IMG/VR virus record: IMGVR_UViG_3300003883_000001
Span: 1 to 40,748 of that record
DNA length: 40,748 nucleotides
From: a virus
Direction: 5' to 3' (one strand)
The notes under the pieces were generated by a model. It did no database searches and was not told where the DNA came from. It saw nothing but the letters and a program-made list of their open reading frames with translations. Below, piece after piece: positions 455 through 40,460 of the stretch; position 1 is the first letter of the stretch; the number at the start of each line of letters is the position of its first letter. Both the position numbers and the translations under genes were made by a program.

Positions 455-645
455 GAAACTATTACAGAAGGTCTTCAAACGAAGCTGAGTTCTTCCTTAA
501 ATTGTGTAATTTTAACCTCCAAGACGCGTACTTCTTACGATCACTGGGGGTTTACGAGTTTTATAACCATTACGAAGCCATGAGCCAAGAAACCAAAAGA
601 AAGATGGAAAAGAGCAAAGAACATGGCAGTAGAAATAGAGTATAA
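403..645 (+). CDS. Tail assembly chaperone T-like extension (frameshift product)
   Basis: This is the second half of the chaperone pair, read in the -1 frame relative to the upstream gene. A GTG at 346 could start the frame on its own, but the stretch 346-402 looks like a shadow of the upstream protein. The part after base 403 is rich in Tyr, Phe and Arg, as expected of a folded domain. I infer expression as a fusion by -1 frameshifting. Its end overlaps the tape measure start at 623 by 23 bases, so the genes are translationally linked. In lambda the T domain binds the tail-tube protein. Independent translation from 346 is the alternative. Confidence 0.55.
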   Translation, partial: ERTTTNLQKAKGWKRYIRNYYRRSSNEAEFFLKLCNFNLQDAYFLRSLGVYEFYNHYEAMSQETKRKMEKSKEHGSRNRV

Positions 646-4965: not shown

Positions 4966-4966
4966 T

Positions 4967-8567: not shown

Positions 8568-9459
8568 GGAAACGGACCATATAAACAAGAACGTCGAAAT
8601 TGTAGAGGGATCGGTAAACACGTTCTCTCAAGGCGTTGAGTCCACTCAGGTGGCTATATTACGCCGCGTCAACTCATCATTACGAAAACTAGAGGTTAGA
8701 AACGGTAAGGTTTTACCATCAAGGGAGAACCTAAAAATACTTAGAGGGTTAAATGAAGACTTAGCTAAGATCATCGTTAATCCGGCGTACAAAAAGAAGG
8801 TAAAAAGATACCTCAGAGCGTTTGATAAGCTCAAGAGACACAATAATTCATACTTTAATTCAACCCTTTCTAATTTCAACGCTAATAAACAGGTCTTTAC
8901 AACCATATTTAACGCTAGTCTTGAGGCTACCCAGAACTCATTGTTACAAGCTGGTATAAATCAATCCGTTATTACTCCCGTCTCCGACATAATCAGACAA
9001 GGCATAACATCTGGAATGTTTATTAACGACATGGAGGACGCTTTAAGAGTGGAAATAGTAGGCGATCCAACTGGAACCATAACCGGGAACCCTAGACAAG
9101 GACGGTTATTGCGCTACACAGGCCAAATAACACGGGATAGCCTCAATCAATTCAGTAGAAACTATGTGACATCGGTTAGTGAAGAGTATCGAATGGAGTG
9201 GTTTTTCTATGATGGCTCAATCATCCAAGACACCAGGGACTATTGTAAGCGAAGGGCTGGTAAATACTTCCATAGAAAAGAGGTTGAAAGAAGTGCAACA
9301 GATGAATGGGCTGGTAAAATACCCGGAACAAATAGGAGTACGATATTCACTTACTGCGGTGGATTTAATTGTCGCCATGAATACTTACCTGTTCTCATAG
9401 ATGTGGTCCCCCAGTCAGTGGTTAGGCGAAACCTAAAAAACGGTAATTACGAGGTATAA
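8560..9459 (+). CDS. Minor head protein, SPP1 gp7 / Mu gpF type
   Basis: A 299-residue head morphogenesis protein. The C-terminal part has the family signature: DTRDYCKRRAGKYF at about 222-235, a W-x-GK-x-PGTN stretch, then YCGGFNCRHEYLP at about 264-276. This is equivalent to the D-R-x-x-C ... NCRC pattern of Mu gpF-like proteins. These proteins join the procapsid at the portal vertex and in some phages travel with the DNA. The start is a TTG at 8560 inside the last codons of the portal gene. No in-frame ATG occurs until well into the protein, so TTG is the best choice, though an unusual one. The N-terminal 150 residues are helical and basic. Confidence 0.8.
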   Translation: MAKETDHINKNVEIVEGSVNTFSQGVESTQVAILRRVNSSLRKLEVRNGKVLPSRENLKILRGLNEDLAKIIVNPAYKKKVKRYLRAFDKLKRHNNSYFNSTLSNFNANKQVFTTIFNASLEATQNSLLQAGINQSVITPVSDIIRQGITSGMFINDMEDALRVEIVGDPTGTITGNPRQGRLLRYTGQITRDSLNQFSRNYVTSVSEEYRMEWFFYDGSIIQDTRDYCKRRAGKYFHRKEVERSATDEWAGKIPGTNRSTIFTYCGGFNCRHEYLPVLIDVVPQSVVRRNLKNGNYEV

Positions 9460-9487
9460 GTATTTTTTATTAAATTTGGATATTAAT

Positions 9488-9495
9488 TAAATTTA
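9488..9495 (+). promoter_or_regulatory. Putative -7 element before the 9499 gene
   Basis: TAAATTTA lies three bases before the ATG at 9499. A perfect Bacteroidota-type TAnnTTTG (TAAATTTG) lies further upstream at 9471-9478. Neither has a clear TTTG -33 partner. The 39-base gap after the minor head gene is one of few in the structural operon, so an internal promoter is plausible. Confidence 0.4.
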
Positions 9496-9498
9496 CTT

Positions 9499-9945
9499 AT
9501 GGCTACAGAGCAAACACTGGCCGAACTCCGAGCAAGGTACAAGGAGTTATACGGCGAAAACGCTAGCGGAAGAGCTAGGGAACAATTTCTAATCGAAAAG
9601 ATCAAGGAAAAGGAAGCAGAAATCGATACCACTGAAGAAGATGAGCTATCAGAAGAAGAATCAGAGCAAGAAGTCGGGGAGCAAGAAGCAACACCCGAAG
9701 AGCAATCGAAAGAAGTAACACCTGTAAACGTGGTTAAAAGCCCTAAAGAAGAAGGGTTCACGCATGGCGGTAAATTCTATCCTTTCATGGAAGGGAATCG
9801 TTACAATGTAATTTTTAAGGGACGAGTAAGAGACTTTTCAGCCAGTAGCATTGCTATTATTCAGAAGGATAAAGCCCTTTTTTCTGAATTTGAACTACCA
9901 AAAGGAAGTCCGGTTACTATTCAAGAAAAAAAAAGACGTGCATAA
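9499..9945 (+). CDS. Head-region protein with acidic linker, function unknown
   Basis: A 148-residue protein with three visible parts. The N-terminal helical segment (1-40) has a TLAELRARYKELYGE pattern resembling small SAP/Rho-N/HeH-like folds. Residues about 42-75 form a very acidic Glu/Ser/Thr linker. The C-terminal region (about 80-148) is basic and beta-prone and contains FMEGNRYNVIFKGRVRDF. The gene lies between the minor head protein and the scaffold, so a virion or assembly role is likely. The lysine/arginine-rich end could touch DNA or capsid. I do not recognise the family. The 53-base upstream gap with promoter-like elements suggests that it may head a transcript carrying scaffold and capsid. 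Confidence 0.6.
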   Translation: MATEQTLAELRARYKELYGENASGRAREQFLIEKIKEKEAEIDTTEEDELSEEESEQEVGEQEATPEEQSKEVTPVNVVKSPKEEGFTHGGKFYPFMEGNRYNVIFKGRVRDFSASSIAIIQKDKALFSEFELPKGSPVTIQEKKRRA

Positions 9946-9960
9946 GGTGCGGTAATTGAC

Positions 9961-10818
9961 ATGGCTGGAATAAAAGAAGTACTAGAAATCGTTTCCAAAA
10001 AGTTTGGAGATGATACTTTATCTGAAGCTCTTAAAGCTGATGATTTGTCTAAGGTTGAGTTTTCTGATGATGTGATTTCACAGATCACAGAGAAAGCAAG
10101 CAACCTACTTACGCCTGATGCGGCGTTGAATAACCCTTCACTTATCGAGAAATATAAGGATAGTGTACACCCTACAATTAAGAAGTCTATCTACGAAAGA
10201 GTAGAAACAGACCTTAAAGAGTTGGGGGGTAAACTAGGTGTTTCATTTGAAGATGGTGAGCAGGCTAATGACATGCTTAAAAAACTAAAGGATTTTAATC
10301 TACCCGCGCCGGAAAAGGGTGATACCAAGAAGTATACTGATGAGATTGACAGGCTTAACTCTGAATTAGCTAAGACAAAGGAGTCTAGCAAGGGAGAGAT
10401 TGATAAGTTAAAGAAAACTTATGAGCAGAAAGAGCTTAGTAATGTTATCGATAGAAGCTTATCCAAATTCAAGCTTGCAGAGGCTTACGATAAGGACTTG
10501 GTTAAAAAGGGAATCTTTGAGAATGTTAAAGGGGAACTATTTAGCAAGGCTGTTGTAAAGGTAGGCGAGAACGGAGGAATAGAACTCTTCCAGAAGGATA
10601 TGCCTGACAAGATGATCTACACTGAGGCTAACAAACCACTCACTTTTGACGAATTTGTAGAGCCTTTAATGAAAGATTACGTGAAGAAGAATGAGGAGAA
10701 GAAAAAAACTGTTAAATTTGAGGGAGCACCTAAATTAGACGAAACAAAGTTTCCACCTAATTCAATGGCTGCTCACTTAGCGAAGGCCCGTTCAGAGGCT
10801 TTCAACACTGGCTCGTAA
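9961..10818 (+). CDS. Prohead scaffolding protein
   Basis: A 285-residue, highly charged protein directly upstream of the major capsid gene, where scaffolds are normally encoded. It is mostly helical, with a coiled-coil-prone segment at about 125-160 (IDRLNSELAKTKESSKGEID), then a more ordered region and a Lys-rich C-terminal part. Scaffolds direct the curvature of the capsid shell and leave before or during packaging. No protease motif (Ser-His or Clp-like) is seen here, and no separate prohead protease was found in the window, so the scaffold may exit intact. Assigned by position, charge and coiled-coil character. Confidence 0.7.
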   Translation: MAGIKEVLEIVSKKFGDDTLSEALKADDLSKVEFSDDVISQITEKASNLLTPDAALNNPSLIEKYKDSVHPTIKKSIYERVETDLKELGGKLGVSFEDGEQANDMLKKLKDFNLPAPEKGDTKKYTDEIDRLNSELAKTKESSKGEIDKLKKTYEQKELSNVIDRSLSKFKLAEAYDKDLVKKGIFENVKGELFSKAVVKVGENGGIELFQKDMPDKMIYTEANKPLTFDEFVEPLMKDYVKKNEEKKKTVKFEGAPKLDETKFPPNSMAAHLAKARSEAFNTGS

Positions 10819-10833
10819 GGGCAAACCATTCTG

Positions 10834-10883
10834 ACAGCTTATTTGCTGTAAAATTTATTTCATAACACATTTAAAATTTTACA
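10834..10883 (+). repeat. Two overlapping inverted repeats in the capsid-gene leader
   Basis: ACAGC (10834-10838) pairs with GCTGT (10845-10849). A stronger 10-bp pair, TGTAAAATTT (10847-10856) with AAATTTTACA (10874-10883), ends three bases before the capsid ATG at 10887. The two share the TGT at 10847-10849, so they are mutually exclusive in RNA. Neither has a typical terminator T-tail. A 5' stabilising or translation-controlling structure is possible. An AT-rich promoter region (TAAAATTTTA at 10872-10881) overlaps it. Confidence 0.4.
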
Positions 10884-10886
10884 ATT

Positions 10887-11990
10887 ATGGCATTTTTCAC
10901 CGATTGGACGGAAAAGCTACAAGCAGTTAGAACGGCTTTGGCTGATAACGTCCAGATCAACGATCCAGAAAACTATTCGAAGCTTACCGGCTTCATGAAT
11001 TACCTGTTCAGTCCGATCAACCCTAAAACGATCAAGACTGTTATGCAGGATAGCGCTGACAAAAGCACTTATCGTCCGGTACAAGTTAAGTACCAACCAC
11101 ATTGGGGTGACGAGGATGTAGTAACTTCTGACTCTTCTGATTCTTGTGATCCAGTAGATCAACGAAGAAGTTCAATTCAGACTTTAGAGCCTAATTTGTT
11201 CATTTCATCTAAGTTCTCATTGGATGAGGATTACTTACGACAAAACACCGAAGATTGGAGTTCACCTGATAACGAGGTTATGAAGGGATTCCAGAAGGCA
11301 ATGCGAGTAGGTAGAGAGAAGATGAATGCTCAGTTGGTTTCTAAGGCTAACACTTTAATTGGTGCGAACCCTGCGGCTTCTGTAAGAACTGGTTCACCTG
11401 TTCAAGCTGGAGATTTTGCGGCTGTTGAAATGATCAATGCGGACGGTTCTCTTTCTGTGAGCAACTTCGACGTTATTGTTAACGATCTTGAAGATAACTT
11501 CATGCAGGGTACTCCAGCGATTATCGGAATGGGTAACGCTAGAAAGGTATTCAACCGACTTGCTGTTGGTAACTTGAATACTTCGGCAGGAGTTGATTTC
11601 GCTGAGATCGAAGAGCAGTTTAACTCTATCCTCTTTAAGGATCAGACGGCTGTTACTGAGCTTGGTGGCGCTAACAGAGTATTGGTTGCTTATCCGGGAC
11701 TACAGCAGTTCTTCAATTACAACTTGAACAAAGGATTCTTTGCTCAGCAAGTGACAGATTTGAGAATCAAAGGCACAATGCCTGATCCAATCTATCCTTT
11801 CGAGTGGGATTACATCATGGAGTACGATAGCAACTGTGAGTCTGGAAACGGACATCAGGGAACTTGGACTTTCCGAGTGTTCTGCTACTTCGATTTGTTC
11901 ACTCCTAACGAGGATGCATTCGGAGATGTTTACGGTGATCTTAACGGATTTACTGGACTATTGGGTTACGATATTACACAAGGCTCTTAA
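10887..11990 (+). CDS. Major capsid protein
   Basis: A 367-residue protein after the scaffold, with the size and mixed alpha/beta composition of HK97-fold capsid proteins. Visible features fit a shell protein: a helical N-terminal arm, an alternating beta region around 60-110, a long helix around MKGFQKAMRVGREKMNAQLV, and a C-terminal beta region containing PDPIYPFEWDY. The gene has its own 68-base leader with hairpins, as expected for the most highly expressed structural gene. No N-terminal pro-domain is obvious. The assignment is from position, length and composition rather than from a signature motif. Confidence 0.8.
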   Translation: MAFFTDWTEKLQAVRTALADNVQINDPENYSKLTGFMNYLFSPINPKTIKTVMQDSADKSTYRPVQVKYQPHWGDEDVVTSDSSDSCDPVDQRRSSIQTLEPNLFISSKFSLDEDYLRQNTEDWSSPDNEVMKGFQKAMRVGREKMNAQLVSKANTLIGANPAASVRTGSPVQAGDFAAVEMINADGSLSVSNFDVIVNDLEDNFMQGTPAIIGMGNARKVFNRLAVGNLNTSAGVDFAEIEEQFNSILFKDQTAVTELGGANRVLVAYPGLQQFFNYNLNKGFFAQQVTDLRIKGTMPDPIYPFEWDYIMEYDSNCESGNGHQGTWTFRVFCYFDLFTPNEDAFGDVYGDLNGFTGLLGYDITQGS

Positions 11991-12570: not shown

Positions 12571-12598
12571 GGCCCCGTTTTTTAGCGGGGTTTTTTTA
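12571..12598 (+). terminator. Rho-independent terminator after the head genes
   Basis: CCCCG (12573-12577) pairs with CGGGG (12586-12590). A T-G wobble and a T-A pair extend the stem around a TTTT loop. The hairpin is followed by seven T (12591-12597). It closes the structural transcript that includes the capsid gene. Confidence 0.85.
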
Positions 12599-12604
12599 TT
12601 TTTA
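12597..12604 (+). promoter_or_regulatory. Putative -7 element for the glycosylation cassette
   Basis: TATTTTTA begins in the terminator T-tail and ends five bases before the ATG at 12610. It matches TAnnTTTG except for the last base and has the same short spacing to the start codon as other promoter candidates here. No convincing TTTG lies about 19 bases upstream. Confidence 0.4.
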
Positions 12605-12609
12605 CAGGT

Positions 12610-13188
12610 ATGAAACTTACAATAGCGATCTTATCCATCCCGGAAAGGTTGCACATGCTACAGAAGCTACTAAACGAACTGGTCCACCAATCATTTAATA
12701 AGCCCGTTGAAATCCTATACATAGGTGATAACATGAGCATGACGGTCGGTGATAAAAGAAACATAGCCCTAGACTCATTTAAAGGTGAGTACATTGCGTT
12801 TGTTGATGACGATGATATGATAAGCGAGGATTACATAGATAGTCTCTTAGAGGCCATTGAAACAAGTCCTGACGTTATCACTTTCAGAGTTGATCAGTTG
12901 TACAACGGAAAGAAGGATAGAAAGCAAGTGTTTGAGCGTGTACACCGAAGGATTTTAGACCCTACTTTAAGAAGAAAATACGGATCGCCTGTTTTAACAA
13001 TGCCACCTAATCATCTTTGTTGCTGGAGAAGGAACGTTATAGACCAGAGATTTCCATCTAAGAACAAAGGAGAAGACCACGCGTGGGCTGAACGCATGTA
13101 TAATAACGACCTTAAAATACACGAGATAGATAAGGAGCTTTATGTCTATCAGTATGACAGTAAGATAAGCCGCACCCAAACAAGATGA
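12610..13188 (+). CDS. Glycosyltransferase, GT-A fold (family 2-like)
   Basis: A 192-residue compact GT-A protein. The N-terminus (MKLTIAILSIPER) is the first strand of a nucleotide-sugar-binding fold. FVDDDDM at 65-70 is the metal-binding D-x-D region, and GEDHAWAERM at about 154-163 matches the (E/G)D position of the general base in family 2 enzymes. It should transfer a sugar from a nucleotide donor in the cytoplasm. The specificity is not readable. It is the first gene of a seven-gene cassette with overlapping stops and starts (the next start overlaps by four bases) that follows a terminator and promoter. Confidence 0.8.
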   Translation: MKLTIAILSIPERLHMLQKLLNELVHQSFNKPVEILYIGDNMSMTVGDKRNIALDSFKGEYIAFVDDDDMISEDYIDSLLEAIETSPDVITFRVDQLYNGKKDRKQVFERVHRRILDPTLRRKYGSPVLTMPPNHLCCWRRNVIDQRFPSKNKGEDHAWAERMYNNDLKIHEIDKELYVYQYDSKISRTQTR

Positions 13189-13844
13189 GACTTTTAACTA
13201 GTTACTTTCACGATAAAGAGCGAAAGAAGGAATTTGATTTCTGCTTAGAGCGCAATATGGAGAATGATTACATAGATGAGATACTGCTTTTCTATGAGTC
13301 AGGTGATTTACCAAAGCTTAACGACAAGGTTAAGATACTCCACTACGATAGACCCACATATAGGGATTTCTTTGAGCAGTTCAAAGAGGGCGAGGTTAAT
13401 GTAGTTGCAAATACGGACATCTTTTTCGATGAATCCGCAATACTTATGAATCGCGTTAAAGATCATCAGTGCTATTGCATAACCAGACACGAGTACGACC
13501 CAGAACAGTTATTACCATTCAGTAGTAAACCTCAATGGTCACAAGATGTTTGGGTGATGAGGAAGAAACCATCTAAATTAGAGGTGTATGAATACGTTGT
13601 AGCTATCAATAACCTCAATAAGAAGTATGAAACAATCCCCTTTTATCTTGGCGTTGCTGGTTGTGACAACCACGTAGCGTACTTATTATCAAAGAACTTT
13701 ATGCTCATCAATCCTTATTTTGACATCAACTGTATTCACGTTCACGAGAATGAAGAGCGTGATTACAATATGAAATACAGAATAACCGGGCAGATGGGCA
13801 GTAGATATGGAATATTAAAACACGTAAAACCATCACGTATATGA
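13185..13844 (+). CDS. Putative glycosyltransferase
   Basis: A 219-residue protein whose sequence fits a GT-A-like enzyme. Residues 71-82 (VNVVANTDIFFD) look like the strand and D-x-D-type metal site, and WSQDVWVMRK near 118-127 resembles a substrate-side strand found in similar proteins. It overlaps its neighbours by four bases on both sides (ATGA junctions), so it is co-translated with the family 2 enzyme before it and the dehydratase after it. Donor and acceptor cannot be inferred. It is less clear than the neighbouring enzymes, but context supports a sugar-transfer role. Confidence 0.6.
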   Translation: MRLLTSYFHDKERKKEFDFCLERNMENDYIDEILLFYESGDLPKLNDKVKILHYDRPTYRDFFEQFKEGEVNVVANTDIFFDESAILMNRVKDHQCYCITRHEYDPEQLLPFSSKPQWSQDVWVMRKKPSKLEVYEYVVAINNLNKKYETIPFYLGVAGCDNHVAYLLSKNFMLINPYFDINCIHVHENEERDYNMKYRITGQMGSRYGILKHVKPSRI

Positions 13845-14830
13845 AAGCTTTTATTACAGGTATAAACGGACAGGACGGAAGTTACCTAGCTGAGTTATTA
13901 TTATCTAAGGGGTATGAGGTCCACGGACTAATTAGGAGAACTTCAGAGCCGCTAATGGGTAAAATCAAGCATTTGGAGAAGTCTGTAACACTCCATCACG
14001 GAGATATGACCGATAGTAGTTCACTACATTCGATTATAGATAAGGTGAGGCCTGATGAAATCTACAATCTAGCCGCCATGTCTCACGTTGGCTGGAGTTT
14101 TAAAAACCCTGAGTACACAATGGACGTAAACACACTGGGTTTAGTGCGGATTATAGAGGCTGTTAGAACCACTGGTATTGATTCTAAGATTTATCAGGCG
14201 TGTTCTAGTGAGATGTTTGGGAAGGTTCAGGAGATTCCGCAGAAGGAAACAACACCGTTCTATCCTAGATCACCTTATGGAGCCTCAAAAGAGGCGGCTT
14301 TTCAGACAGCTAGGATTTACAGGGAGTCTTATGACATGAAAATCTACTGCGGATTCCTGTTTAACCATGAGTCTGAGCGAAGAGGTGAGGAGTTTTTGAG
14401 CCGGAAGGTATGTAAGGCTGTTGGTGAAATACACAGGGGTGAGCGAAACTTATTGGAGATTGGTAACATGGAGGCAAAGAGAGACTGGGGGTACGCTAAG
14501 GAGTACGTGGAATGGATTTACGAGATTATGCAACATGAGACACCGGATGATTTCGTGATATGTACAGGAGAACATCATTCGGTTAGAGAATGGATTGAAT
14601 TAGCCTTTAAGGAAATAGGCGATGAGATAAGATGGGAAGGTTCTGAAGTTGATGAGAGAGGTTATAATCAGAACGGTATTGAGAGAGTAAGAATAAACCC
14701 TAAATTCTATCGTCCAGCAGAAGTTGACACATTACTTGGTGATAGCTCTAAGTCTAGGGAGATTCTAGGTTTCGAGCCAAAGGTTAAGTTTAAAGAGTTG
14801 GTTTCTATAATGACCAAAGCAGAGCTATGA
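13841..14830 (+). CDS. gmd: GDP-mannose 4,6-dehydratase
   Basis: A 329-residue extended short-chain dehydrogenase that converts GDP-D-mannose to GDP-4-keto-6-deoxy-D-mannose, the precursor of fucose, rhamnose and perosamine type sugars. The NADP site TGINGQDGSYLAE is at 6-18. The catalytic region CSSEMFG is at 121-127. Tyr146 and Lys150 form the Y-x-x-x-K pair (SPYGASK), and FNHESERRGEEF at 174-185 is the GMD-type substrate loop. RPAEVDTLLGDSSKS near the end is the conserved GDP-sugar-binding segment. The length is close to the usual 340-370 residues. It sits between glycosyltransferase genes and overlaps both neighbours by four bases. Confidence 0.92.
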   Translation: MKAFITGINGQDGSYLAELLLSKGYEVHGLIRRTSEPLMGKIKHLEKSVTLHHGDMTDSSSLHSIIDKVRPDEIYNLAAMSHVGWSFKNPEYTMDVNTLGLVRIIEAVRTTGIDSKIYQACSSEMFGKVQEIPQKETTPFYPRSPYGASKEAAFQTARIYRESYDMKIYCGFLFNHESERRGEEFLSRKVCKAVGEIHRGERNLLEIGNMEAKRDWGYAKEYVEWIYEIMQHETPDDFVICTGEHHSVREWIELAFKEIGDEIRWEGSEVDERGYNQNGIERVRINPKFYRPAEVDTLLGDSSKSREILGFEPKVKFKELVSIMTKAEL

Positions 14831-15153
14831 CACACGAGGATAACAGGAGGGTATTAGTAGATGTGGAAAACCCTGAAGGTGGACGCATTAAAATAGTGAT
14901 TGCTAAAAAGGATTGTATTTTAGGCAAGCATTACCATAAGATTAAGACGGAAATATTCACCCTTTCACACGGCGAGGCTGATGTTAGATATAGAGACATC
15001 AATAAAAAGAGATTTAAAACTGCAAAGTTGTTACCCGGTAATACCATTGTAATTACACCAGACACTTTGCATGAATTTTTCATTAGAAAAGGATCGGTCT
15101 TACTCTGTCATGTAGATAGAGATTACGACCCTTCGGACGACTATCATGAATAA
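14827..15153 (+). CDS. Small cupin, probable sugar-modifying
   Basis: A 108-residue single-domain cupin. GKHYHKIKTEIFTLSHGEA (33-51) is cupin motif 1, with His35, His37 and Glu42 as likely metal or active-site residues. PDTLHEFF (78-85) is motif 2, with His82. The C-terminal DRDYDPSDDYHE resembles ends of sugar ketoisomerases and WxcM/CapF-like cupins. It directly follows the dehydratase, so it may isomerise or bind the 4-keto-6-deoxy sugar made by that enzyme. That is inference, because many cupins are not enzymes. It overlaps the next gene by eight bases. Confidence 0.65.
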   Translation: MTHEDNRRVLVDVENPEGGRIKIVIAKKDCILGKHYHKIKTEIFTLSHGEADVRYRDINKKRFKTAKLLPGNTIVITPDTLHEFFIRKGSVLLCHVDRDYDPSDDYHE

Positions 15154-16174
15154 TACAATTGAACTATTACCTAATGGGGATTTTAAAGTGATCCCAAGCA
15201 AATTGAAAGTTTTACACGTTGGCTTAATGGTCAATAAGAAGCTTAATGTAGGATTATCGAAAGCCTTTCGAGAGTCATGCGACTACAGAGAGGTTGAACT
15301 TAACCACCAAGCGATACAGGAGTTAACCAGAATTGATTTCAACCCTGATATTGTATTTGTACAAGTGCAAAACGAGAAGATAGGGAGCTTGAAAACAAGC
15401 CTTCTTAACGAACCTCTTCAGCTATTAAGAGATAAGGGCGCATTTGTTATTAATTGGACCGGAGACATCCGTAATGATGTGCCTAAATGGATGTATGAAT
15501 TCAATGCTGATTTAACGTGCTTCAGTAACATGCGAGACGTTAATAATTTCAGGGGTAAATCAGACTTCCTTCAAATAGGTATTGATCCTGTAAATTTCAA
15601 TCCTAATCACAAGCTTGAAGATTTACCAGCCAGAAACATGATGCCCAAAGGACTGCCGAAAGTAGTGTTTATGGGTAACAATGCTGGACATTTCCCTCTA
15701 AGTAGGTATAGAATGGACATGGTGAAGAGACTTCAAAGAGAGTTTGGAGATGATTTTTGGGTGTTTGGCAACGGATATCCGGGGTCAAAAGGAAGTTTAA
15801 ACGCCAGCCCGGCCGACCCTTACCACATGCAAAGCTTAGAAAGCTATATTTACAGGACGTCAAAGGTGGTCATAAGCATATCACACTACAATGAGGATAG
15901 ATATTTCTCTGATAGGCTACTTAGAGCTATGGGTTCAGGTGCTTTTGTTCTAAGTCACAACTATAAAGGCATAGAAAAGGATTGGGATGTAGGGAAAGAC
16001 TTGGACGTTTTCGATAATCTGGACGAATTGGTCGATAAAATCGAGGAACACACGGAGATTAAAGCGATTAATGCGTACATGCTTGGAAGGGAAGCGGCCA
16101 ACAAGGTCCATAACAACCACACATATTACCACATGGTACAGGATATTATTAATTTATACAATAAACACAAATGA
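15146..16174 (+). CDS. Glycosyltransferase, GT-B fold (CgeB-like)
   Basis: A 342-residue protein with the look of CgeB-type glycosyltransferases. The N-terminal domain begins with KVLHVGLMVNKKL. A linker carries a substrate-handling strand (VINWTGDIRNDVP), and the C-terminal nucleotide-sugar domain starts near KVVFMGNNAG. The signature YFSDRLLRAMGSGAFVLSH at about 253-271 is the donor-binding helix and the Gly-Ala turn of this group. Unlike its neighbours it has a GT-B rather than a GT-A organisation, so the cassette combines both folds. It overlaps the cupin gene upstream and the next gene by four bases. Confidence 0.8.
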   Translation: MNNTIELLPNGDFKVIPSKLKVLHVGLMVNKKLNVGLSKAFRESCDYREVELNHQAIQELTRIDFNPDIVFVQVQNEKIGSLKTSLLNEPLQLLRDKGAFVINWTGDIRNDVPKWMYEFNADLTCFSNMRDVNNFRGKSDFLQIGIDPVNFNPNHKLEDLPARNMMPKGLPKVVFMGNNAGHFPLSRYRMDMVKRLQREFGDDFWVFGNGYPGSKGSLNASPADPYHMQSLESYIYRTSKVVISISHYNEDRYFSDRLLRAMGSGAFVLSHNYKGIEKDWDVGKDLDVFDNLDELVDKIEEHTEIKAINAYMLGREAANKVHNNHTYYHMVQDIINLYNKHK

Positions 16175-16971
16175 AGACTTTAGCATACATGCCATTGCAC
16201 TACGGTGCGGACTACTTACTGGAGGCTTGTCGATCTGTATTGCCCGCAGTGGATGAATTTTTAATTCTTTACACGCCTCATCCTAGTTACGGACATAAAG
16301 GACGCATACCACTGCCTAAGTCCGAATCAAGGGACCAGCTATTCAAGCTTTATGAGTCGTTAAATGACTACCCTGAAGCAGGAGCGAAGTTGTCTTGGAT
16401 TGATGTAAACTCAAACAGGGAGAATGAGCACCGCGAAACTGGACACAGATACGCTAGAGAACATAAATTCGATATGTCTATAGCTGTTGATTCAGACGAA
16501 GTGTGGGATACTGAGAGTGTTTTTAAGTCCCTAGACGAAGCGCAAGGGCATCACGCCTTCATGACTACTTGGAAAGGCTGGAAGCACTTTTACAGGTCGT
16601 TTAATGAGTATTGCACCGATGGATTCCAGCCTGTTAGGATATTCAATTACAATAATAAGCTGGGGTCTACGGGATGTGTGGATAGTTCAGTGATATACCA
16701 CATGGGATATGCTATCAGAGAGGAGTTAATGGCGTACAAGCTATCGTGCCATGGGCATAAGAACGAAATGAATCCGGGCTTTTATAATGAGTGGGCAAAC
16801 TACAACAGAAAAGATTGGCAAGCATTCTTGGATTATGACTTCACTCAAGATAAAGACTGGACACTTCACCCGGTGAGTAAGCAAGTATGGATAGAGACTA
16901 AACTACAGGATGTTAATGAGCTTCCTGACTTACTTAAAAATCACAAATTCTTTGGATTGGAAAAGATATGA
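16171..16971 (+). CDS. Glycosyltransferase, GT-A fold (family 2-like)
   Basis: A 266-residue protein. The strand SIAVDSDEVWD (103-113) holds a D-S-D-E metal-binding motif of GT-A enzymes. The first strand MKTLAYMPLHYGADYL is followed by a helix with the C-R-S-V-L-P-A pattern typical of the fold. TTWKGWKHFYRSF and the later HPVSKQVWIE lie where acceptor-binding segments would be. It overlaps both neighbours by four bases. Sugar and acceptor are unknown. Its size and motif suggest one transfer step in a glycan built from several enzymes. Confidence 0.7.
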   Translation: MKTLAYMPLHYGADYLLEACRSVLPAVDEFLILYTPHPSYGHKGRIPLPKSESRDQLFKLYESLNDYPEAGAKLSWIDVNSNRENEHRETGHRYAREHKFDMSIAVDSDEVWDTESVFKSLDEAQGHHAFMTTWKGWKHFYRSFNEYCTDGFQPVRIFNYNNKLGSTGCVDSSVIYHMGYAIREELMAYKLSCHGHKNEMNPGFYNEWANYNRKDWQAFLDYDFTQDKDWTLHPVSKQVWIETKLQDVNELPDLLKNHKFFGLEKI

Positions 16972-17561
16972 GTAACGCCGCGGTAATAGTAGACAGCAGG
17001 AAGATCGATATTTCGATTATCAAGGCTCACATGGATCACTTGCCGGGCTATGATCTACATATCTGGTCTACTCATTTACCCGAAAATACTGCGCATTACT
17101 TCCATACCTATGTTGGTGGTGGTGGATCGGACTATAATTCATTTCTAACAAGGCCGTCTTTCTGGAAAGAGCTATGCGATTACGACAATGTGGTTGTTTT
17201 TCAGCAAGACAGTATGATATTAAGGGATGGAATAGAAGATTTTGAGGGGTTTGACTATGTTGGTGCGCCGTGGAAGTTTGGCGTTCCGTGGGGTAGGCCG
17301 GATAGGGCTGGAGGTAATGGTGGGTTAAGCCTAAGAAATCCAAAAGCCCATTACGATCTAACAATAAAGAAACCTTACAGTGGAAAATATGGAAATGAAG
17401 ACGTTTATTTTAGCCACTATTTACCAAATGTTGCGCCTTTTGAAGTGTGTAGCCTATTTTCTTGCGAGACTGTATTTAAATTGGGTACGCTTGGTTATCA
17501 CGCAATAGAGAAACACCTACCAGTCAATGAAGTTAATCGAATAAAATCCCAATATTATTGA
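16968..17561 (+). CDS. DUF5672-type glycosyltransferase
   Basis: A 197-residue protein with the DUF5672 landmarks: VVVFQQDSMILR (75-86, the D-x-D equivalent), FDYVGAPW (95-102), GGNGGLSLRN (115-124) and NEDVYFS (143-149). DUF5672 proteins are GT-A-like putative glycosyltransferases often found in glycan gene clusters. This is the last gene of the cassette. It overlaps the previous gene by four bases and is followed by a 30-base gap with promoter-like sequence before the next structural gene. Confidence 0.8.
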   Translation: MSNAAVIVDSRKIDISIIKAHMDHLPGYDLHIWSTHLPENTAHYFHTYVGGGGSDYNSFLTRPSFWKELCDYDNVVVFQQDSMILRDGIEDFEGFDYVGAPWKFGVPWGRPDRAGGNGGLSLRNPKAHYDLTIKKPYSGKYGNEDVYFSHYLPNVAPFEVCSLFSCETVFKLGTLGYHAIEKHLPVNEVNRIKSQYY

Positions 17562-27549: not shown

Positions 27550-28413
27550 TTAATAATACCTTCCTGTCTGCCAGTCGTAATTAAGGGTAATTGTTGATGG
27601 TCTACCTAAATACTTCTGGTCTTTAAGTTTAGCGACTTCTAAATCTATTTGATCCTCACTAGACATATCACCGTTGAAGGATTTATGTCTATGCATTATC
27701 AATATTCCGTCGCATTTGTTGTTATGCATGGCTCCACCATGAGGCATAAAAACATTGCACGGTGGGTATTGACCATCTTTATTTGGTGTTGGTGATTTAG
27801 GGTGCTCGACGTAAAGAACAATGCCCTTTATCCTTTGCGCAAACTGCTTTAGTCTGGTAAGCGTTAACCTCAAGGCCTCAACCATATTCACATTATAGCT
27901 ATTAGAAGTAAGCCAGTTCATAGGGTCGATAACAAAAAACTTGTAGTCTTCCAACGCGAGTGCGTCAAATTCCTGTATAATCTGATCAAGACTAGGCATT
28001 CCGTTCTGGTCATTTATTTCGACTATTCTAAAATTATCATTAACAACCTGTTCGGGTGGAGTGATATGCAATGAAGCCGCCAATGTTATTAGCTCATGCA
28101 TGAATACCGGAGTCCTAGATTCAGGAGTGAAAAATACAACCTTACCCTTATTGAATCTGTAGTAATTCATTGCTAAGAATTTACTCATTTCAGACTTGCC
28201 AGATTGTGGGTAACCGGTAAGTAAAACCAACTGCTCTTCACAAAAATTAAAGTGCGGGTTTAACTGTGAAATACCTGTCGATATTGGAACTATTAATTGA
28301 CCTTTGTTGTGTAGGTCAATTTCGTGTTTGTAGTCATTTACCTGTTTGACATCTACAGCAAAGTTTTTATTTTGCTCTGTAAGCGATTTAAAGAGGCTCT
28401 CAGCGTCGTTCAT
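27550..28413 (-). CDS. DnaB/RecA-fold replicative ATPase
   Basis: A 287-residue protein with the ATPase core of DnaB-like helicases. Walker A is GYPQSGKS at 67-74, a post-Walker Glu lies in VVFFTPESR, and Walker B ends at Asp163 in FFVIDPMNW. KLKDQKYLG near the end resembles the conserved Arg/Lys segment of hexameric helicases. It lacks the N-terminal primase-interaction domain of DnaB and is shorter than the 450-residue norm, so it is closer to Twinkle/short RecA-like phage helicases. It would drive fork unwinding in the phage replication operon. It overlaps the upstream gene by 14 bases. Confidence 0.75.
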   Translation of the reverse strand: MNDAESLFKSLTEQNKNFAVDVKQVNDYKHEIDLHNKGQLIVPISTGISQLNPHFNFCEEQLVLLTGYPQSGKSEMSKFLAMNYYRFNKGKVVFFTPESRTPVFMHELITLAASLHITPPEQVVNDNFRIVEINDQNGMPSLDQIIQEFDALALEDYKFFVIDPMNWLTSNSYNVNMVEALRLTLTRLKQFAQRIKGIVLYVEHPKSPTPNKDGQYPPCNVFMPHGGAMHNNKCDGILIMHRHKSFNGDMSSEDQIDLEVAKLKDQKYLGRPSTITLNYDWQTGRYY

Positions 28414-28726
28414 TAGTAAAATGGTCTAGTACCCCACAAAATTCTAAAACTGTCTTAGAAGCGATTTCTATCTGCTCATCGAGCATTTGCGATTTTCGGT
28501 AAAGTTCGCCTGTTCTCATGGCATTTGCACTTATCCATCCCTCTGCATACTGCTCGAGTTTTGACAAAAGAAGATTAACCAATTGCAAATCTTTCTCCTT
28601 GGTGAATTCACCTTTGTATTTCAGTCCGTTTTGGAAAGCTGTCATCTCTGGTGATGTCTTAACTTTTTGTAGGTCTGATTTGATTGTCTTGGCTATCATG
28701 TGATCGCCGAATATTTCTTTGTCTAC
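28400..28726 (-). CDS. Replication operon protein, unknown (108 aa)
   Basis: A helical protein of 108 residues. I place the start at the ATG at 28726 because it overlaps the stop of the upstream replication protein by four bases (ATGGTAG); the in-frame extension to 28819 would overlap that gene by about 100 bases. It has a KTSPEMTAF segment, a Leu-rich helix (LQLVNLLLSKLEQYAE) and a Cys near the end. No family is recognised. Position between a DUF6291-type protein and the helicase-like ATPase suggests a loader or adaptor, which is inference. Confidence 0.6.
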   Translation of the reverse strand, partial: VDKEIFGDHMIAKTIKSDLQKVKTSPEMTAFQNGLKYKGEFTKEKDLQLVNLLLSKLEQYAEGWISANAMRTGELYRKSQMLDEQIEIASKTVLEFCGVLDHFTNERR

Positions 28727-29316
28727 CATGTTCTTGTTTTTTGGGTTTGTAAGTAAGGGAGCGTGTTGAGCAATTTGGACTTCCAGTTTTTTATTTCCTT
28801 GCCGTTGCCGTCTTTCCATCCGTTCTCCTTCCAGCTTTGGAACTTCAGCCTCACATCCTCCGGGCTAACATCTTTCTTTTTGTCTACCGCATAAGATAAA
28901 AATTCATCAATGGAGGGTATATATATATCCCTATCCTTATCCCTATCCTTATCCCTATCGGTATAATTCGTATCGGGTCGTATACGTTCGTATACGTTCG
29001 TATCCCATCGTTTTTTTATGTTTTCTCTGTTCTTTTTACACTTGTCCATCCACTTCTCCAAATCTCGCTTTAACGTGGTTTTTAGCGGTGTAAAGGCTAT
29101 TTCTGTTAGTCTATCAGGTGCTACGGGATCGAGATCGTTGACGTATTTTAACAGGTGTTTTATAAGCCTTCCCGCCTCTTCATCTGACAATGAATCAAAG
29201 GTATGAACCCAATCACAGTAGGCATTAAATGTTTTTTTTCCTTGCATATAAACTATCGTTTTATGGACTATCTTAAATGAGAAATGAGGGGCAACCCGAT
29301 AGTTAAAGGCTTTCAT
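28723..29316 (-). CDS. Phage replication protein with DUF6291 domain
   Basis: A 197-residue protein. Residues about 28-105 match the DUF6291 pattern (FNAYCDWVHTFDSL, then DEEAGRLIKHLLKYVND, IAFTPLKTTLKRDLEKW and ending in KKRW), a domain found at the N-terminus of phage replication initiators or replisome organisers. A short Asp/Lys/Arg linker follows at about 115-130, then a C-terminal segment (IPSIDEFLSYAVDKK ... WKSKLLNTLPYL) typical of such proteins. The linker is encoded by tandem DNA repeats. The first ATG is at 29316. The ATG at 29247, right before the conserved domain, is an alternative start. Confidence 0.7.
   Translation of the reverse strand: MKAFNYRVAPHFSFKIVHKTIVYMQGKKTFNAYCDWVHTFDSLSDEEAGRLIKHLLKYVNDLDPVAPDRLTEIAFTPLKTTLKRDLEKWMDKCKKNRENIKKRWDTNVYERIRPDTNYTDRDKDRDKDRDIYIPSIDEFLSYAVDKKKDVSPEDVRLKFQSWKENGWKDGNGKEIKNWKSKLLNTLPYLQTQKTRTW
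28929..28964. repeat. Three 12-bp tandem repeats (candidate origin, part 1)
   Basis: CCCTATCCTTAT occurs at 28929-28940 and 28941-28952, with a variant CCCTATCGGTAT at 28953-28964. An alternating TA run at 28918-28928 precedes them. They lie inside the replication protein gene. Because 12 is a multiple of three, this part also repeats in the protein (Arg-Asp-Lys-Asp). Confidence 0.7.
28961..29010. repeat. Five 10-bp tandem repeats (candidate origin, part 2)
   Basis: Units are GTATAATTCG, TATCGGGTCG, TATACGTTCG, TATACGTTCG and TATCCCATCG, end to end from 28961. The unit length is not a multiple of three, so the repeat is maintained at DNA level, about one helical turn each. It suggests binding sites for an initiator, as in lambda O. 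Confidence 0.65.
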
Positions 29317-29366
29317 CTGGTAGCTACTCCAAACTAAGCCCCTCCGTCTACAAATTTAGTTAAAAA

Positions 29367-29498
29367 TTACCAGCTTTTAATCGGCAACTCTTTGATGTAT
29401 TCATTGGATAACATGATCCTTTTTCCGCTATCATCCTGTCTTTTTCCGTACCACTTTATCCAGTCTTTTCGGTGTTTTTCCGTATCAAAGTATTCCAT
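29367..29498 (-). CDS. Small basic protein (43 aa)
   Basis: A 43-residue frame between SSB and the replication protein, starting three bases after the SSB stop. It is rich in Lys, Trp and charged residues (HRKDWIKWYGKRQDDSGK) and ends in ELPIKSW. No motif is recognised. Its tight spacing behind the SSB gene makes translation likely. A role in DNA transactions is possible from charge and context only. Confidence 0.55.
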   Translation of the reverse strand: MEYFDTEKHRKDWIKWYGKRQDDSGKRIMLSNEYIKELPIKSW

Positions 29499-29501
29499 AA
29501 T

Positions 29502-29879
29502 TTAAAAGGGTAAATCGTCTGTGGTATTTTCTGAATCATTCTGCTCGGAATCTTTAATTGGACCGCCTAGCATGGTAATATTAGACCCTAGAATTTCAGT
29601 GGTGTATCTGGTCACCCCGTCTTTTTCCCAAGATCGAGTTTTCAACGATCCTTCTATGTACATTTTAGAGCCTTTTTTAATGTACTGCTCAATCACTTTA
29701 GCAACCTTACCCCAGAATACAATTTGATGCCATTCTGTGGACTCCTGAACGGCTCCTTGCTGGTCTTTGTATTTACTAGTGGTAGCCAATGTAAAGTTTG
29801 CCACTGACTTGCCATTTTCTAGGTGTCTGACCTCTGGGTCTTTACCTACGTTTCCTATTAAAATTACTTTGTTTATCAT
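29502..29879 (-). CDS. ssb: Single-stranded DNA-binding protein
   Basis: A 125-residue SSB with the OB fold and the usual landmarks: MINKVILIGNVGKDPEVR at the N-terminus, NFTLATT, WHQIVFWGKVAKV and YIEGSLKTRSWEKDG. A Gly/Asn/Asp linker leads to the acidic DDLPF tail that recruits partner proteins. It coats ssDNA during phage replication and recombination. It lies 11 bases after the Rad52-like gene, a pairing common in phage recombination systems. Confidence 0.95.
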   Translation of the reverse strand: MINKVILIGNVGKDPEVRHLENGKSVANFTLATTSKYKDQQGAVQESTEWHQIVFWGKVAKVIEQYIKKGSKMYIEGSLKTRSWEKDGVTRYTTEILGSNITMLGGPIKDSEQNDSENTTDDLPF

Positions 29880-29890
29880 TATTATTAAAT

Positions 29891-30469
29891 TTATTTTCTC
29901 GGATTCTTCGAATTGTAGGGGTTAGAGTTAAATCTTTCGACCTCTTTACCATTTTTTAGTTTTTGGATTGCAACCAATTTAAACCCCCCTGTTTCTGGGT
30001 GTTCCCAATCTAATTCCCATTTCCAGTTATTTGGTTTTAGGAAACCTGTTGTTTTGTAGGAATCCCCATTTTTCTTATACTCCTTTTCGTTTAGTATTAT
30101 CTTTATGGGTGGAAATTCGTACAAACACCTACCTATTCCCCACATGAACCCAGCCCTCTTAAACGCGTCAGAGTACTCACCTTTTTCAGATTCAAAATCA
30201 CTAGGCGTTCCGTTTGACCATTTCCAAACCCATTTATCTTCACACCATATACCTATGCCGCACTGAAGAACTCCTTTAGTGTCTCTCTTGTATTCATTCT
30301 GCCAATTTTCAGGGCCGCACACTTCGTCAAGTTTATGCATGTCAACCCTAGCGTCCTTATAAGCCAGTATTGTGCAAAAAACATTATCCCCATATGCGTT
30401 AATACCCTTTGGTTTGAAATCAATATCAGACGATTCTAAAGGGTTACTGAGTTGATGTAAGTTTTCCAT
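29891..30469 (-). CDS. Rad52/Rad22-like ssDNA annealing protein
   Basis: A 192-residue protein with the Rad52-family core: AYKDARVDMHKLDEVCGPENWQNEY (residues 36-60, in two parts), then WKWSNGTPSDFESEKGEYSDAF and KRAGFMWGIGRCLYEFP up to about 120. These segments match the annealing domain that binds ssDNA and catalyses strand pairing. The C-terminus is basic. With SSB next to it, it likely mediates single-strand annealing, recombination-dependent replication and genome circularisation. It overlaps the small upstream gene by 26 bases. Confidence 0.85.
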   Translation of the reverse strand: MENLHQLSNPLESSDIDFKPKGINAYGDNVFCTILAYKDARVDMHKLDEVCGPENWQNEYKRDTKGVLQCGIGIWCEDKWVWKWSNGTPSDFESEKGEYSDAFKRAGFMWGIGRCLYEFPPIKIILNEKEYKKNGDSYKTTGFLKPNNWKWELDWEHPETGGFKLVAIQKLKNGKEVERFNSNPYNSKNPRK

Positions 30470-30602
30470 TTTTTATCAGTGTTTTAATTCTTTGAGATTC
30501 AATTTTTAGAGATAGTATTTTATCGACAGGTAAAACCTTGTCGGACTCAAAATCATCGTAAAAATCATCGATGATCTCAAGTAGGTTCATTACTTCTTGC
30601 AT
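30444..30602 (-). CDS. Small protein, unknown (52 aa)
   Basis: A 52-residue frame linking two operon genes. Its ATG overlaps the stop of the upstream gene by one base (TAATG), and its end overlaps the Rad52-like start. The N-terminal half is acidic (LLEIIDDFYDDFESD) and the C-terminal half is basic. No family is recognised. Coupling on both sides is the evidence for expression. Confidence 0.55.
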   Translation of the reverse strand: MQEVMNLLEIIDDFYDDFESDKVLPVDKILSLKIESQRIKTLIKNGKLTSTQ

Positions 30603-30931
30603 TAATATCCGTATTTTAATGGTGTTTTACCAGCCTCCTGACTTCCTTCTCTAGGCTTGAAGCAGTCTAAAATGTATTTTTCTATTGCTTGATAGTAATA
30701 TCGAGGGATGTCATATGATTCATCATTTATCTCGAAATTCATTCCCGAAATGGAGAATATTTCATCGTTATCAGATTTATCACAACCAACAGTTAGAATG
30801 CAATCACCCCACTGAAAATCAAAGCAGTTATGAAAATCACCAACAATCTCAGGTGCTATTTTACCACCTAAAAGCTTTTCCTCGAAAAACTTATTAATAT
30901 GGTCAATGTGTTCTCTGGATAATTTTTTCAT
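30602..30931 (-). CDS. First gene of the leftward early operon, unknown (109 aa)
   Basis: A 109-residue protein beginning MKKLSREHIDHINKFFEEK, acidic and with three Cys (CFDFQWGDCILTVGC around 36-50). No known domain is recognised. It is the first gene transcribed leftward from the divergent control region, directly after a perfect TAnnTTTG promoter element, so it is expected to be made early and strongly. Host takeover or replication control are both open. Confidence 0.6.
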   Translation of the reverse strand: MKKLSREHIDHINKFFEEKLLGGKIAPEIVGDFHNCFDFQWGDCILTVGCDKSDNDEIFSISGMNFEINDESYDIPRYYYQAIEKYILDCFKPREGSQEAGKTPLKYGY

Positions 30932-30935
30932 GTTT

Positions 30936-30943
30936 CAAATGTA
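30936..30943 (-). promoter_or_regulatory. Leftward early promoter, -7 element
   Basis: On the - strand TACATTTG matches the Bacteroidota -7 consensus TAnnTTTG perfectly. TTTTG (complement of 30962-30966) lies 18 bases upstream as the -33 element. Only four bases separate TTTG from the ATG, so the transcript is nearly leaderless. Confidence 0.75.
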
Positions 30944-30955
30944 GACTTTTTTAAA

Positions 30956-30981
30956 TAAATGCAAAATTAATTTTGCATTTA
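30956..30981. promoter_or_regulatory. 26-bp perfect palindrome, putative operator
   Basis: The half-site TAAATGCAAAATT is followed by its exact reverse complement. Each arm contains the TTTTG/CAAAA -33 element of one of the two divergent promoters. A dimeric regulator bound here would control both. The adjacent HTH protein is the obvious candidate. Confidence 0.75.
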
Positions 30982-30995
30982 CTAAATTATTTTAG

Positions 30996-31003
30996 CATAT
31001 TTG
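30996..31003 (+). promoter_or_regulatory. Rightward early promoter, -7 element
   Basis: CATATTTG has one mismatch to TAnnTTTG. TTTTG at 30971-30975 is the -33 element, 20 bases upstream. Four bases (TCTC) separate it from the ATG at 31008. Confidence 0.6.
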
Positions 31004-31007
31004 TCTC

Positions 31008-31205
31008 ATGAAACAAAAATTAACTGTTCATGAAGCAATACTTAATTCCGGTTTTAGGAAGGGATTTGTTGCGGATCAGCTAGGTGTTTATCCATCTACT
31101 ATAATTAGGTGGAACAATAAGGAAACAAGACCATCTAAGATGATGCTTACAGCGCTTTGTGAGTTACTTGATATTTATGAAGAAGAAATTGACCTAAAAG
31201 AATGA
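31008..31205 (+). CDS. Small HTH transcriptional regulator (Cro/CI-like)
   Basis: A 65-residue protein that is essentially one helix-turn-helix domain. The helices are at about 7-14 and 17-26, with recognition helix at about 29-36 (PSTIIRWNNKE). C-terminal helices follow (LTALCELLDIYEEEI). It lacks a dimerisation or cleavage domain, resembling Cro more than CI. It starts five bases after the rightward -7 element next to the palindrome, so it likely controls both its own promoter and the leftward operon. The stop overlaps the next start by four bases. Confidence 0.75.
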   Translation: MKQKLTVHEAILNSGFRKGFVADQLGVYPSTIIRWNNKETRPSKMMLTALCELLDIYEEEIDLKE

Positions 31206-31606
31206 AACTAAATTTATCCGATACCGTAGAACAAACTAAAGCTAGGGAGTACTTTCAGAAACTAATAGCTGAAGGCGCTCAAATAGAGCTTAAAAAGTTC
31301 AAGCCTAGTCGATCTAACCAGCAAAACAGGTATTTTCATCTGTGCTGTACGTTGCTCAGTGATTACAGTGGGTACACAACGGATGAGGTGAAGATGATAA
31401 TCAAGAATCAGTTAGAGTTTATGTCTTACCTGAAGGGCAAGCATAAGTTCTACAAGTCAAGCGCAGAGTTAAACACGGAGGAGTTCACTCTTTTGATAGA
31501 TTTTACTAGGGAGTTTGCGCATCAACACGGTGTTAATATCCCTACTCCAGAAGAGTATTTTAATAATCAGTTTGAAATCGATAAAATTTTTGATCATATA
31601 TTATGA
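31202..31606 (+). CDS. NinB-like recombination protein candidate
   Basis: A 134-residue protein with RSNQQNRYFHLCCTLLSDYSGY near 38-59 (given here in outline: R-S-N-Q-Q-N-R-Y-F-H) and a C-terminal helix region ending in HGVNIPTPEEYF. The QQNRYFH core and helical layout recall phage recombination proteins of the NinB type. In lambda NinB modulates recombination and binds ssDNA. It is coupled to the HTH gene by a four-base overlap. The assignment is tentative, because many unannotated phage proteins share this motif. Confidence 0.45.
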   Translation: MKLNLSDTVEQTKAREYFQKLIAEGAQIELKKFKPSRSNQQNRYFHLCCTLLSDYSGYTTDEVKMIIKNQLEFMSYLKGKHKFYKSSAELNTEEFTLLIDFTREFAHQHGVNIPTPEEYFNNQFEIDKIFDHIL

Positions 31607-33948: not shown

Positions 33949-34161
33949 ATGACAAAAGAAGAAATACAAAATTTAAAAGAAAGTATCAATCATATTTCAC
34001 AACGGCATGTTAGAATTACGCGCTTAAATAAAGAATGGAAAAAAGCATTAATTGAATTATGTGACCATGCATTAGCCCTTGACACGATTGAAGAGGACTC
34101 TCAACATATACCAGCCGCCACTACCGATGTAACCAGTAACGACATAGATAAGCAGTTATGA
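33949..34161 (+). CDS. Hypothetical protein (70 aa)
   Basis: A 70-residue protein with an amphipathic N-terminal helical half (EIQNLKESINHIS, EWKKALIELCDHALAL) and a flexible Ser/Thr/Asp tail. No family recognised. It starts four bases after the ASCH gene and overlaps the next small gene by four bases (ATGA). Confidence 0.5.
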   Translation: MTKEEIQNLKESINHISQRHVRITRLNKEWKKALIELCDHALALDTIEEDSQHIPAATTDVTSNDIDKQL

Positions 34162-40169: not shown

Positions 40170-40177
40170 TATCTTTA
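40170..40177 (+). promoter_or_regulatory. Putative -7 element for the tail/late operon
   Basis: TATCTTTA (one mismatch to TAnnTTTG) ends four bases before the ATG at 40182, immediately after the second terminator. It has the same geometry as other promoter candidates. No clear -33 TTTG is visible. Confidence 0.45.
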
Positions 40178-40181
40178 CATC

Positions 40182-40460
40182 ATGACAGAACTAATATTAA
40201 ATGCCCTATGGATACTAGGCTTTAGCAAGTTGTTTGAGGCTGGTATGATATTCGAAGAGATCGACGTATGGATTATGACCAAACTAAACGTCAATCATCA
40301 CTGGTTATTAAAGCCGGTTTATGCATGCCCTCCATGCATGTCATCAATTCACGGACTTATTGGAGCTGTATTCTTTGGAATACCATTCATCCTGATCCCT
40401 GTTTACATTGTAATGCTAGCGGGGTTACTTTCATTCGCACAAAAACTAATGTATAGATGA
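40182..40460 (+). CDS. Membrane protein with CPPC motif (92 aa)
   Basis: A 92-residue membrane protein. A hydrophobic N-terminal helix (about 3-25) and a strongly hydrophobic C-terminal region (about 57-82) surround the segment KPVYACPPCMSSIHG, with Cys49 and Cys52. A C-P-x-C-x-S pattern next to a membrane helix is seen in DUF1360-like small phage and bacterial membrane proteins. It is the first gene of the late operon and overlaps the next microgene by four bases. Confidence 0.6.
   Translation: MTELILNALWILGFSKLFEAGMIFEEIDVWIMTKLNVNHHWLLKPVYACPPCMSSIHGLIGAVFFGIPFILIPVYIVMLAGLLSFAQKLMYR

Follow-up and report, generated by a model that had tools for sequence, protein, structure and literature searches.

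A perfect 26-bp palindrome occupies the middle of a short AT-rich gap between two divergent operons of this virus. Judged by its central dyad symmetry, by the promoter-like boxes on its outer flanks and by the gene of a Cro/CI-type HTH protein next to it, it is best read as an operator shared by both directions. The full model, i.e. an autoregulated two-way operator at which the 65-aa HTH protein would repress two divergent leaderless promoters, is given a probability of roughly 60%. That the palindrome serves as a common switch site had been proposed from the sequence-only reading, and the layout described below supports this proposal.

The intergenic palindrome and the adjoining genes

The gap (30932-31007, 76 bp, 20% GC) separates a leftward recombination/replication operon from a rightward operon headed by the HTH_3 gene (Table 1). 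The palindrome consists of the 13-bp arms TAAATGCAAAATT and AATTTTGCATTTA and is the longest perfect one in the window (the whole analysed stretch of 40,748 nt); the runner-up has 14 bp. Mononucleotide shuffling of the gap produced arms of at least 13 bp 6 times in 200,000 rounds, and seven perfect palindromes with such arms were present in 1.2 Mb of chromosome from four Bacteroidota genomes. Because of this rarity, the palindrome is not considered a chance product, with the reservation that a perfect palindrome arises more readily in AT-rich DNA than the odds for a random 26-mer would imply. Its centre is 37.5 and 39.5 bp away from the two ATGs, hence nearly symmetric. If transcription starts at the ATGs, the palindrome would extend from about -25 to -50 in the left promoter and from about -27 to -52 in the right one. 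Both the perfect palindrome between divergent genes and the small HTH gene beside it, the ORF of which starts 26 bp away, had been pointed out before and were recovered here.

Table 1. Positions of the palindrome, the candidate promoter boxes and the neighbouring genes in the window.
Feature	Position	Strand	Remarks
Left operon, remainder	27550..30602	-	52-aa ORF, Erf/Rad52 annealing protein, SSB, DUF6291 protein, 139-aa ORF, DnaB-like helicase
109-aa protein, first gene of left operon	30602..30931	-	no family match
TACATTTG, perfect TAHHTTTG -7 box	30936..30943	-	4 nt before left-gene ATG; predicted leaderless promoter of the recombination/replication operon
Imperfect extension of the palindrome	30951-30986		18-nt arms, two mismatches
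Perfect 26-bp palindrome	30956..30981	.	proposed shared operator
TAATTTTG inside palindrome, alternative -7 box for left gene	30962..30969	-	leader about 25 nt; flanks at 32nd percentile
TAATTTTG inside palindrome, alternative -7 box for HTH gene	30968..30975	+	leader about 27 nt; flanks at 43rd percentile
CATATTTG, -7-like box, C for T at -12	30996..31003	+	4 nt before HTH ATG; predicted leaderless promoter of the right operon
65-aa HTH_3 (Cro/CI-type) protein	31008..31205	+	proposed operator-binding autoregulator; Pfam, PHROG and PDB matches
NinB/Orf-like recombination mediator, second gene of right operon	31202..31606	+	PHROG 72, E 6e-16

A sequence search gave no match for the exact 26-bp palindrome elsewhere. 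Two shortened cores were tried as relatives of the operator and rejected: the 20-bp core was found in one virus (two contigs), inside a coding gene, and the 16-bp core in 27 contigs, none of which carried it in a comparable divergent gap. Two of the 16-bp matches were flanked by longer, terminator-like palindromes. Further operator copies were not found within the window, where half-sites were counted at chance level; an additional half-site with one mismatch (AAATACAAAATT) is located at 33962-33973 (+), and such sites occur at chance frequency. No Rfam element was matched.

The 109-aa protein had no match in Pfam, PHROGs or NCBIfam, and close relatives in viral contigs were found neither for it nor for the NinB-like protein. 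The NinB/Orf-like gene overlaps the stop codon of the HTH gene by 4 nt. At the gene of the Erf relatives (L002-L012) the divergent arrangement is absent, hence they provided no syntenic comparison.

For the 65-aa protein, HTH_3 was the best family, with a Pfam match (E 9.7e-5) of 22.8 bits just under the gathering cut-off of 23. Weak PHROG matches comprised phage repressors and CII-like regulators (E 0.005-0.02), and the closest solved structure was an uncharacterised DNA-binding protein (PDB 3bs3, E 0.0017). A single-sequence AlphaFold model was too poor (pLDDT 61) to confirm the fold. No close relative was found in viral contigs, phage records, genome contigs or 395 Bacteroidota genomes, and since homologues were lacking for the protein as well as for the operator, conservation could not be used as a test. 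Adjacency and size suggest that the 65-aa protein may be the ligand of the palindrome.

Promoter-like boxes outside and inside the palindrome

The sequence-only reading had placed a TTTTG on each strand of the palindrome, 18 and 20 bases from the respective -7 elements. Both spacers were correct on re-measurement: TTTTG at 30966-30962 (-) is 18 bases away from TACATTTG at 30943-30936, and TTTTG at 30971-30975 (+) is 20 bases away from CATATTTG at 30996-31003. When both strands of the window were searched for the strict pattern TTTG-N17-21-TANNTTTG, the minus promoter was the single match. Shuffled sequences yielded a mean of 1.4 matches, thus the position of this promoter is telling, not its existence.

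What had gone unnoticed is that each outer box ends exactly 4 nt before an ATG. In F. johnsoniae, transcription starts 4-5 nt downstream of the -7 box (PMC6847099), and with this spacing either mRNA would have no leader or almost none; the spacing of the Bacteroidota primary sigma factor (TAHHTTTG 4-5 nt before the start) fits the outer boxes only with leaderless mRNAs. Such mRNAs form a minority in Bacteroidota: they make up 5.5% in F. psychrophilum (PMC9723704), and 5' UTRs of <10 nt make up about 3.7% in B. thetaiotaomicron (PMC7366714). In the Bacteroidota sample, TAHHTTTG peaked 15-30 nt before gene starts, and a small separate cluster was present at exactly 4 nt (four genes; none at 0-3 nt).

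Flanking sequences were compared using about 650 Bacteroidota upstream regions. The training set of the flank model comprised 106 perfect boxes located at promoter distance within 1.2 Mb of four Bacteroidota genomes; it is a modest model (leave-one-out AUC 0.77), and its training genomes are not those of the phage host. The left outer box scored at the 95th and the right outer box at the 99.8th percentile of the intergenic background. The right box (CANNTTTG), the weaker of the two, is a -7 variant tolerated in Bacteroidota: CAHHTTTG was enriched 5-fold at promoter distance (1.13 vs 0.22 per kb) and TAHHTTTG 7.6-fold in the same sample.

Three of the eight TAHHTTTAC boxes in the window end 2-4 nt before a start codon (9488-9499, 12597-12610 and 40170-40182, all +). 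Those at 12610 and 40182 sit right on the T-run of a hairpin resembling a terminator, which would fuse a terminator to a putative leaderless promoter. The leaderless-type spacing recurs in this phage at 9499, 12610 and 40182, which was counted in favour of the outer promoters.

The palindrome itself contains a second pair of boxes, missed in the earlier reading: its centre CAAAATTAATTTTG is made up of two overlapping perfect TAHHTTTG boxes on opposite strands which have one TA step in common. The palindrome could accordingly be a bidirectional core promoter (CAAA-AT-TA-AT-TTTG) with starts at its ends, leaders of about 25-27 nt and any operator role superimposed; RNA polymerase bound in one direction would exclude the other. 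This reading is unlikely, but several features were counted in its favour. The box on each strand is perfect, 3 of the window's 19 TAHHTTTG sites fall within the 76-bp gap, and the implied leaders resemble the median of 24 nt in F. psychrophilum (PMC9723704) and the mode of 23 nt in B. thetaiotaomicron (PMC7366714), while the implied start separation of 23-25 bp is close to a common spacing of bidirectional promoters in E. coli (PMC12825309). However, the flanks of the inner boxes scored below typical promoters, the symmetric motif CAAANNTANNTTTG occurred in none of 132 divergent gaps (1.2 Mb of Bacteroidota DNA) and exceeded its reversed control only inconsistently across 61 Bacteroidota genomes, and 8 additional matched pairs outside the common boxes are left unexplained. 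The flank scores, the enrichment of CAHHTTTG and the absence of CAAANNTANNTTTG from divergent gaps favour the outer boxes; the inner pair nevertheless deserves to be taken seriously as a competitor.

The inner boxes also bear on the claim that the palindrome holds the -33 elements of both promoters. TTTG is indeed present at about -33 on both sides, within the region from about -25 to -52 covered by the palindrome, but the label is weak. Since the palindrome has its own -7 boxes, each TTTTG may be a -33 element or the end of a -7 box. Furthermore, TTTG at -33 was not enriched upstream of -7 boxes in Bacteroidota upstream regions and is likewise not evident in F. johnsoniae (PMC6847099), hence the arms are better not called -33 elements.

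The proposed switch and competing explanations

In the preferred model, a single central operator would lie between two divergent early promoters of the Bacteroidota primary-sigma pattern and be occupied by a small HTH protein, most likely the 65-aa neighbour, as one dimer or as two dimers binding cooperatively. Covering the stretch from about -25 to -52 in each promoter, the protein would block access of the polymerase in both directions, dampening its own operon (HTH, NinB-like and downstream genes) and, from the same operator, the opposite recombination/replication operon. If the outer -7 boxes are active, leaderless mRNAs would begin at the A of each ATG.

Several points were counted against this model. 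At 26-36 bp, the dyad exceeds the 16-18 bp that one Cro dimer usually occupies, so that two dimers or a different protein could be accommodated. The right -7 box lacks the T at -12, and TTTG is unenriched at -33 in Bacteroidota. The flank model is modest and derived from genomes other than that of the host, which is itself predicted. Finally, binding by the HTH protein is a prediction, with no homologue of protein or operator among the collections searched.

The operator might also act with the opposite sign or serve another protein: the HTH protein could activate one or both promoters from near -38/-40, either as a class II activator or in the manner of phage CII or the C proteins of restriction-modification systems, or a host or other phage protein could use the site. 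The dyad centre is at the position of a class II activator, the right promoter has a C at -12 and thus an imperfection that is common among activated promoters, weak PHROG matches to CII-like regulators were obtained (E 0.005-0.01) and the dyad would accommodate two dimers. Against activation, the CII-like scores were not better than the repressor scores, HTH_3 was the best family and the left promoter appears complete unaided; this alternative is considered improbable. Doubtful to a greater degree is a one-operator, one-regulator Bacteroidota phage switch in which the palindrome would be operator and bidirectional promoter at once, with the regulator and two opposed polymerases competing for 26 bp in a system lacking CI and integrase.

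A structural role of the inverted repeat near the replication genes (hairpin, cruciform or replication origin feature) is very unlikely. In its favour, the gap is very AT-rich, and in phage contigs with distant helicase relatives a small divergent HTH gene is separated from the helicase operon by long hairpins, the arms of which vary between groups with complementarity kept and the HTH protein nearly constant. However, those helicases share only 32-33% identity and belong to remote phages, the repeat studied here has no loop beyond 4 central bases, its RNA hairpin is weak (-8.5 vs about -17 kcal/mol in those contigs) and would be untranscribed if transcription starts at the ATGs, and neither iterons nor other half-sites above chance were found.

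In contigs L014-L016 and L018-L025, hairpins with perfect arms of 16-19 bp lie in the gap that separates the divergent HTH gene from the helicase operon. The arm sequences differ among three groups on both sides and the 63-aa HTH protein hardly varies, a pattern suggestive of selection acting on pairing, not on sequence.

Phage context and comparison with known systems

The host is probably a member of the Bacteroidota, as indicated by the promoter pattern and by some Erf relatives in Bacteroidota genomes; other Erf relatives were found in Gammaproteobacteria. The linear record lacks overlapping ends and comes without a completeness estimate. Head, portal, terminase, tail and lysis genes are present; a larger CI-like repressor or a partition gene was not identified in the record. 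It had been proposed that the switch operates without integrase and points to a regulated lytic or episomal life. The first part agrees with the absence of any Pfam match to a tyrosine integrase (PF00589) or resolvase (PF00239) in this linear record, but the lifestyle claim overreaches for a record of this kind, which is linear, lacks an end overlap and a completeness estimate, and in which neither a larger CI-like repressor nor a partition gene was identified; an episomal lifestyle is speculation.

The order of the virion genes in region 623-11990 (+) is unusual, with a tape-measure-like gene (623-2695) upstream of the portal gene (6594-8567), and the terminase gene is at the opposite end of the record. 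This is consistent with a circularly permuted genome with an arbitrary cut. A cassette of seven genes amid the virion genes (12610-17561, +) encodes glycosyltransferases, a GDP-mannose 4,6-dehydratase family protein, a cupin-like and a DUF5672 protein, which suggests glycan synthesis or modification by the phage.

Early gene control in Bacteroidota phages is poorly described, and promoters of these hosts are unlike the E. coli ones. With a compact symmetric operator and two predicted leaderless promoters, the region would lend itself as a simple model for studying repression at TAnnTTTG promoters as well as leaderless translation, an uncommon mode in these hosts. The operator/promoter unit may also be useful as an orthogonal part for synthetic circuits.

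The Cro-CI regions of lambda, 434 and P22 combine a small HTH protein with dyad operators overlapping divergent early promoters, several operators being present along with a CI gene. The lambdoid feature of a dyad operator between divergent early promoters is found here, the promoters being predicted from sequence. In contrast to the lambdoid regions, there is one site, the promoters are of the TAnnTTTG type, and no opposing CI/Cro pair was recognised: the opposite 109-aa gene matches no family, and no CI-like gene was identified among the ORFs scanned. An integrase/lysogeny module was not detected with PF00589 and PF00239 in the record, which is possibly incomplete.

A precedent, counted in favour of the model, is the telomere phage PY54, in which a palindromic Cro operator lies between divergent leaderless cI and cro mRNAs and the prophage is a linear plasmid (PMC4488713). 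Divergent genes, a small HTH protein, an intergenic palindromic operator (here proposed) and leaderless mRNAs (here predicted) are common to both. In PY54, a CI repressor gene is opposite cro and the promoters are of the sigma-70 type, whereas here the 109-aa protein heads an opposite replication operon and the promoters are of the TAnnTTTG type. The PY54 Cro operator is also shorter (16-18 bp) and controls one direction only (PMC4488713); the 26-bp dyad described here is central and extends across both promoters.

The CI/MOR switches of TP901-1 and phi13 (PMC8516035) likewise have palindromic operators amid divergent promoters and two small regulators, but they rely on three operators and on a CI that carries C-terminal domains, and no MOR-like partner is present here. 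The inner boxes resemble E. coli bidirectional promoters, in which boxes on opposite strands overlap and have bases in common (PMC12825309); those are sigma-70 -10 boxes, whereas use of the inner boxes here is putative and disfavoured by the flank scores. No account of such a switch in Bacteroidota phages was found in the literature searched, which does not prove its absence. By analogy with these systems, the control logic is most likely lambda/PY54-like and the region of a known kind in phages, set in an unfamiliar promoter context.
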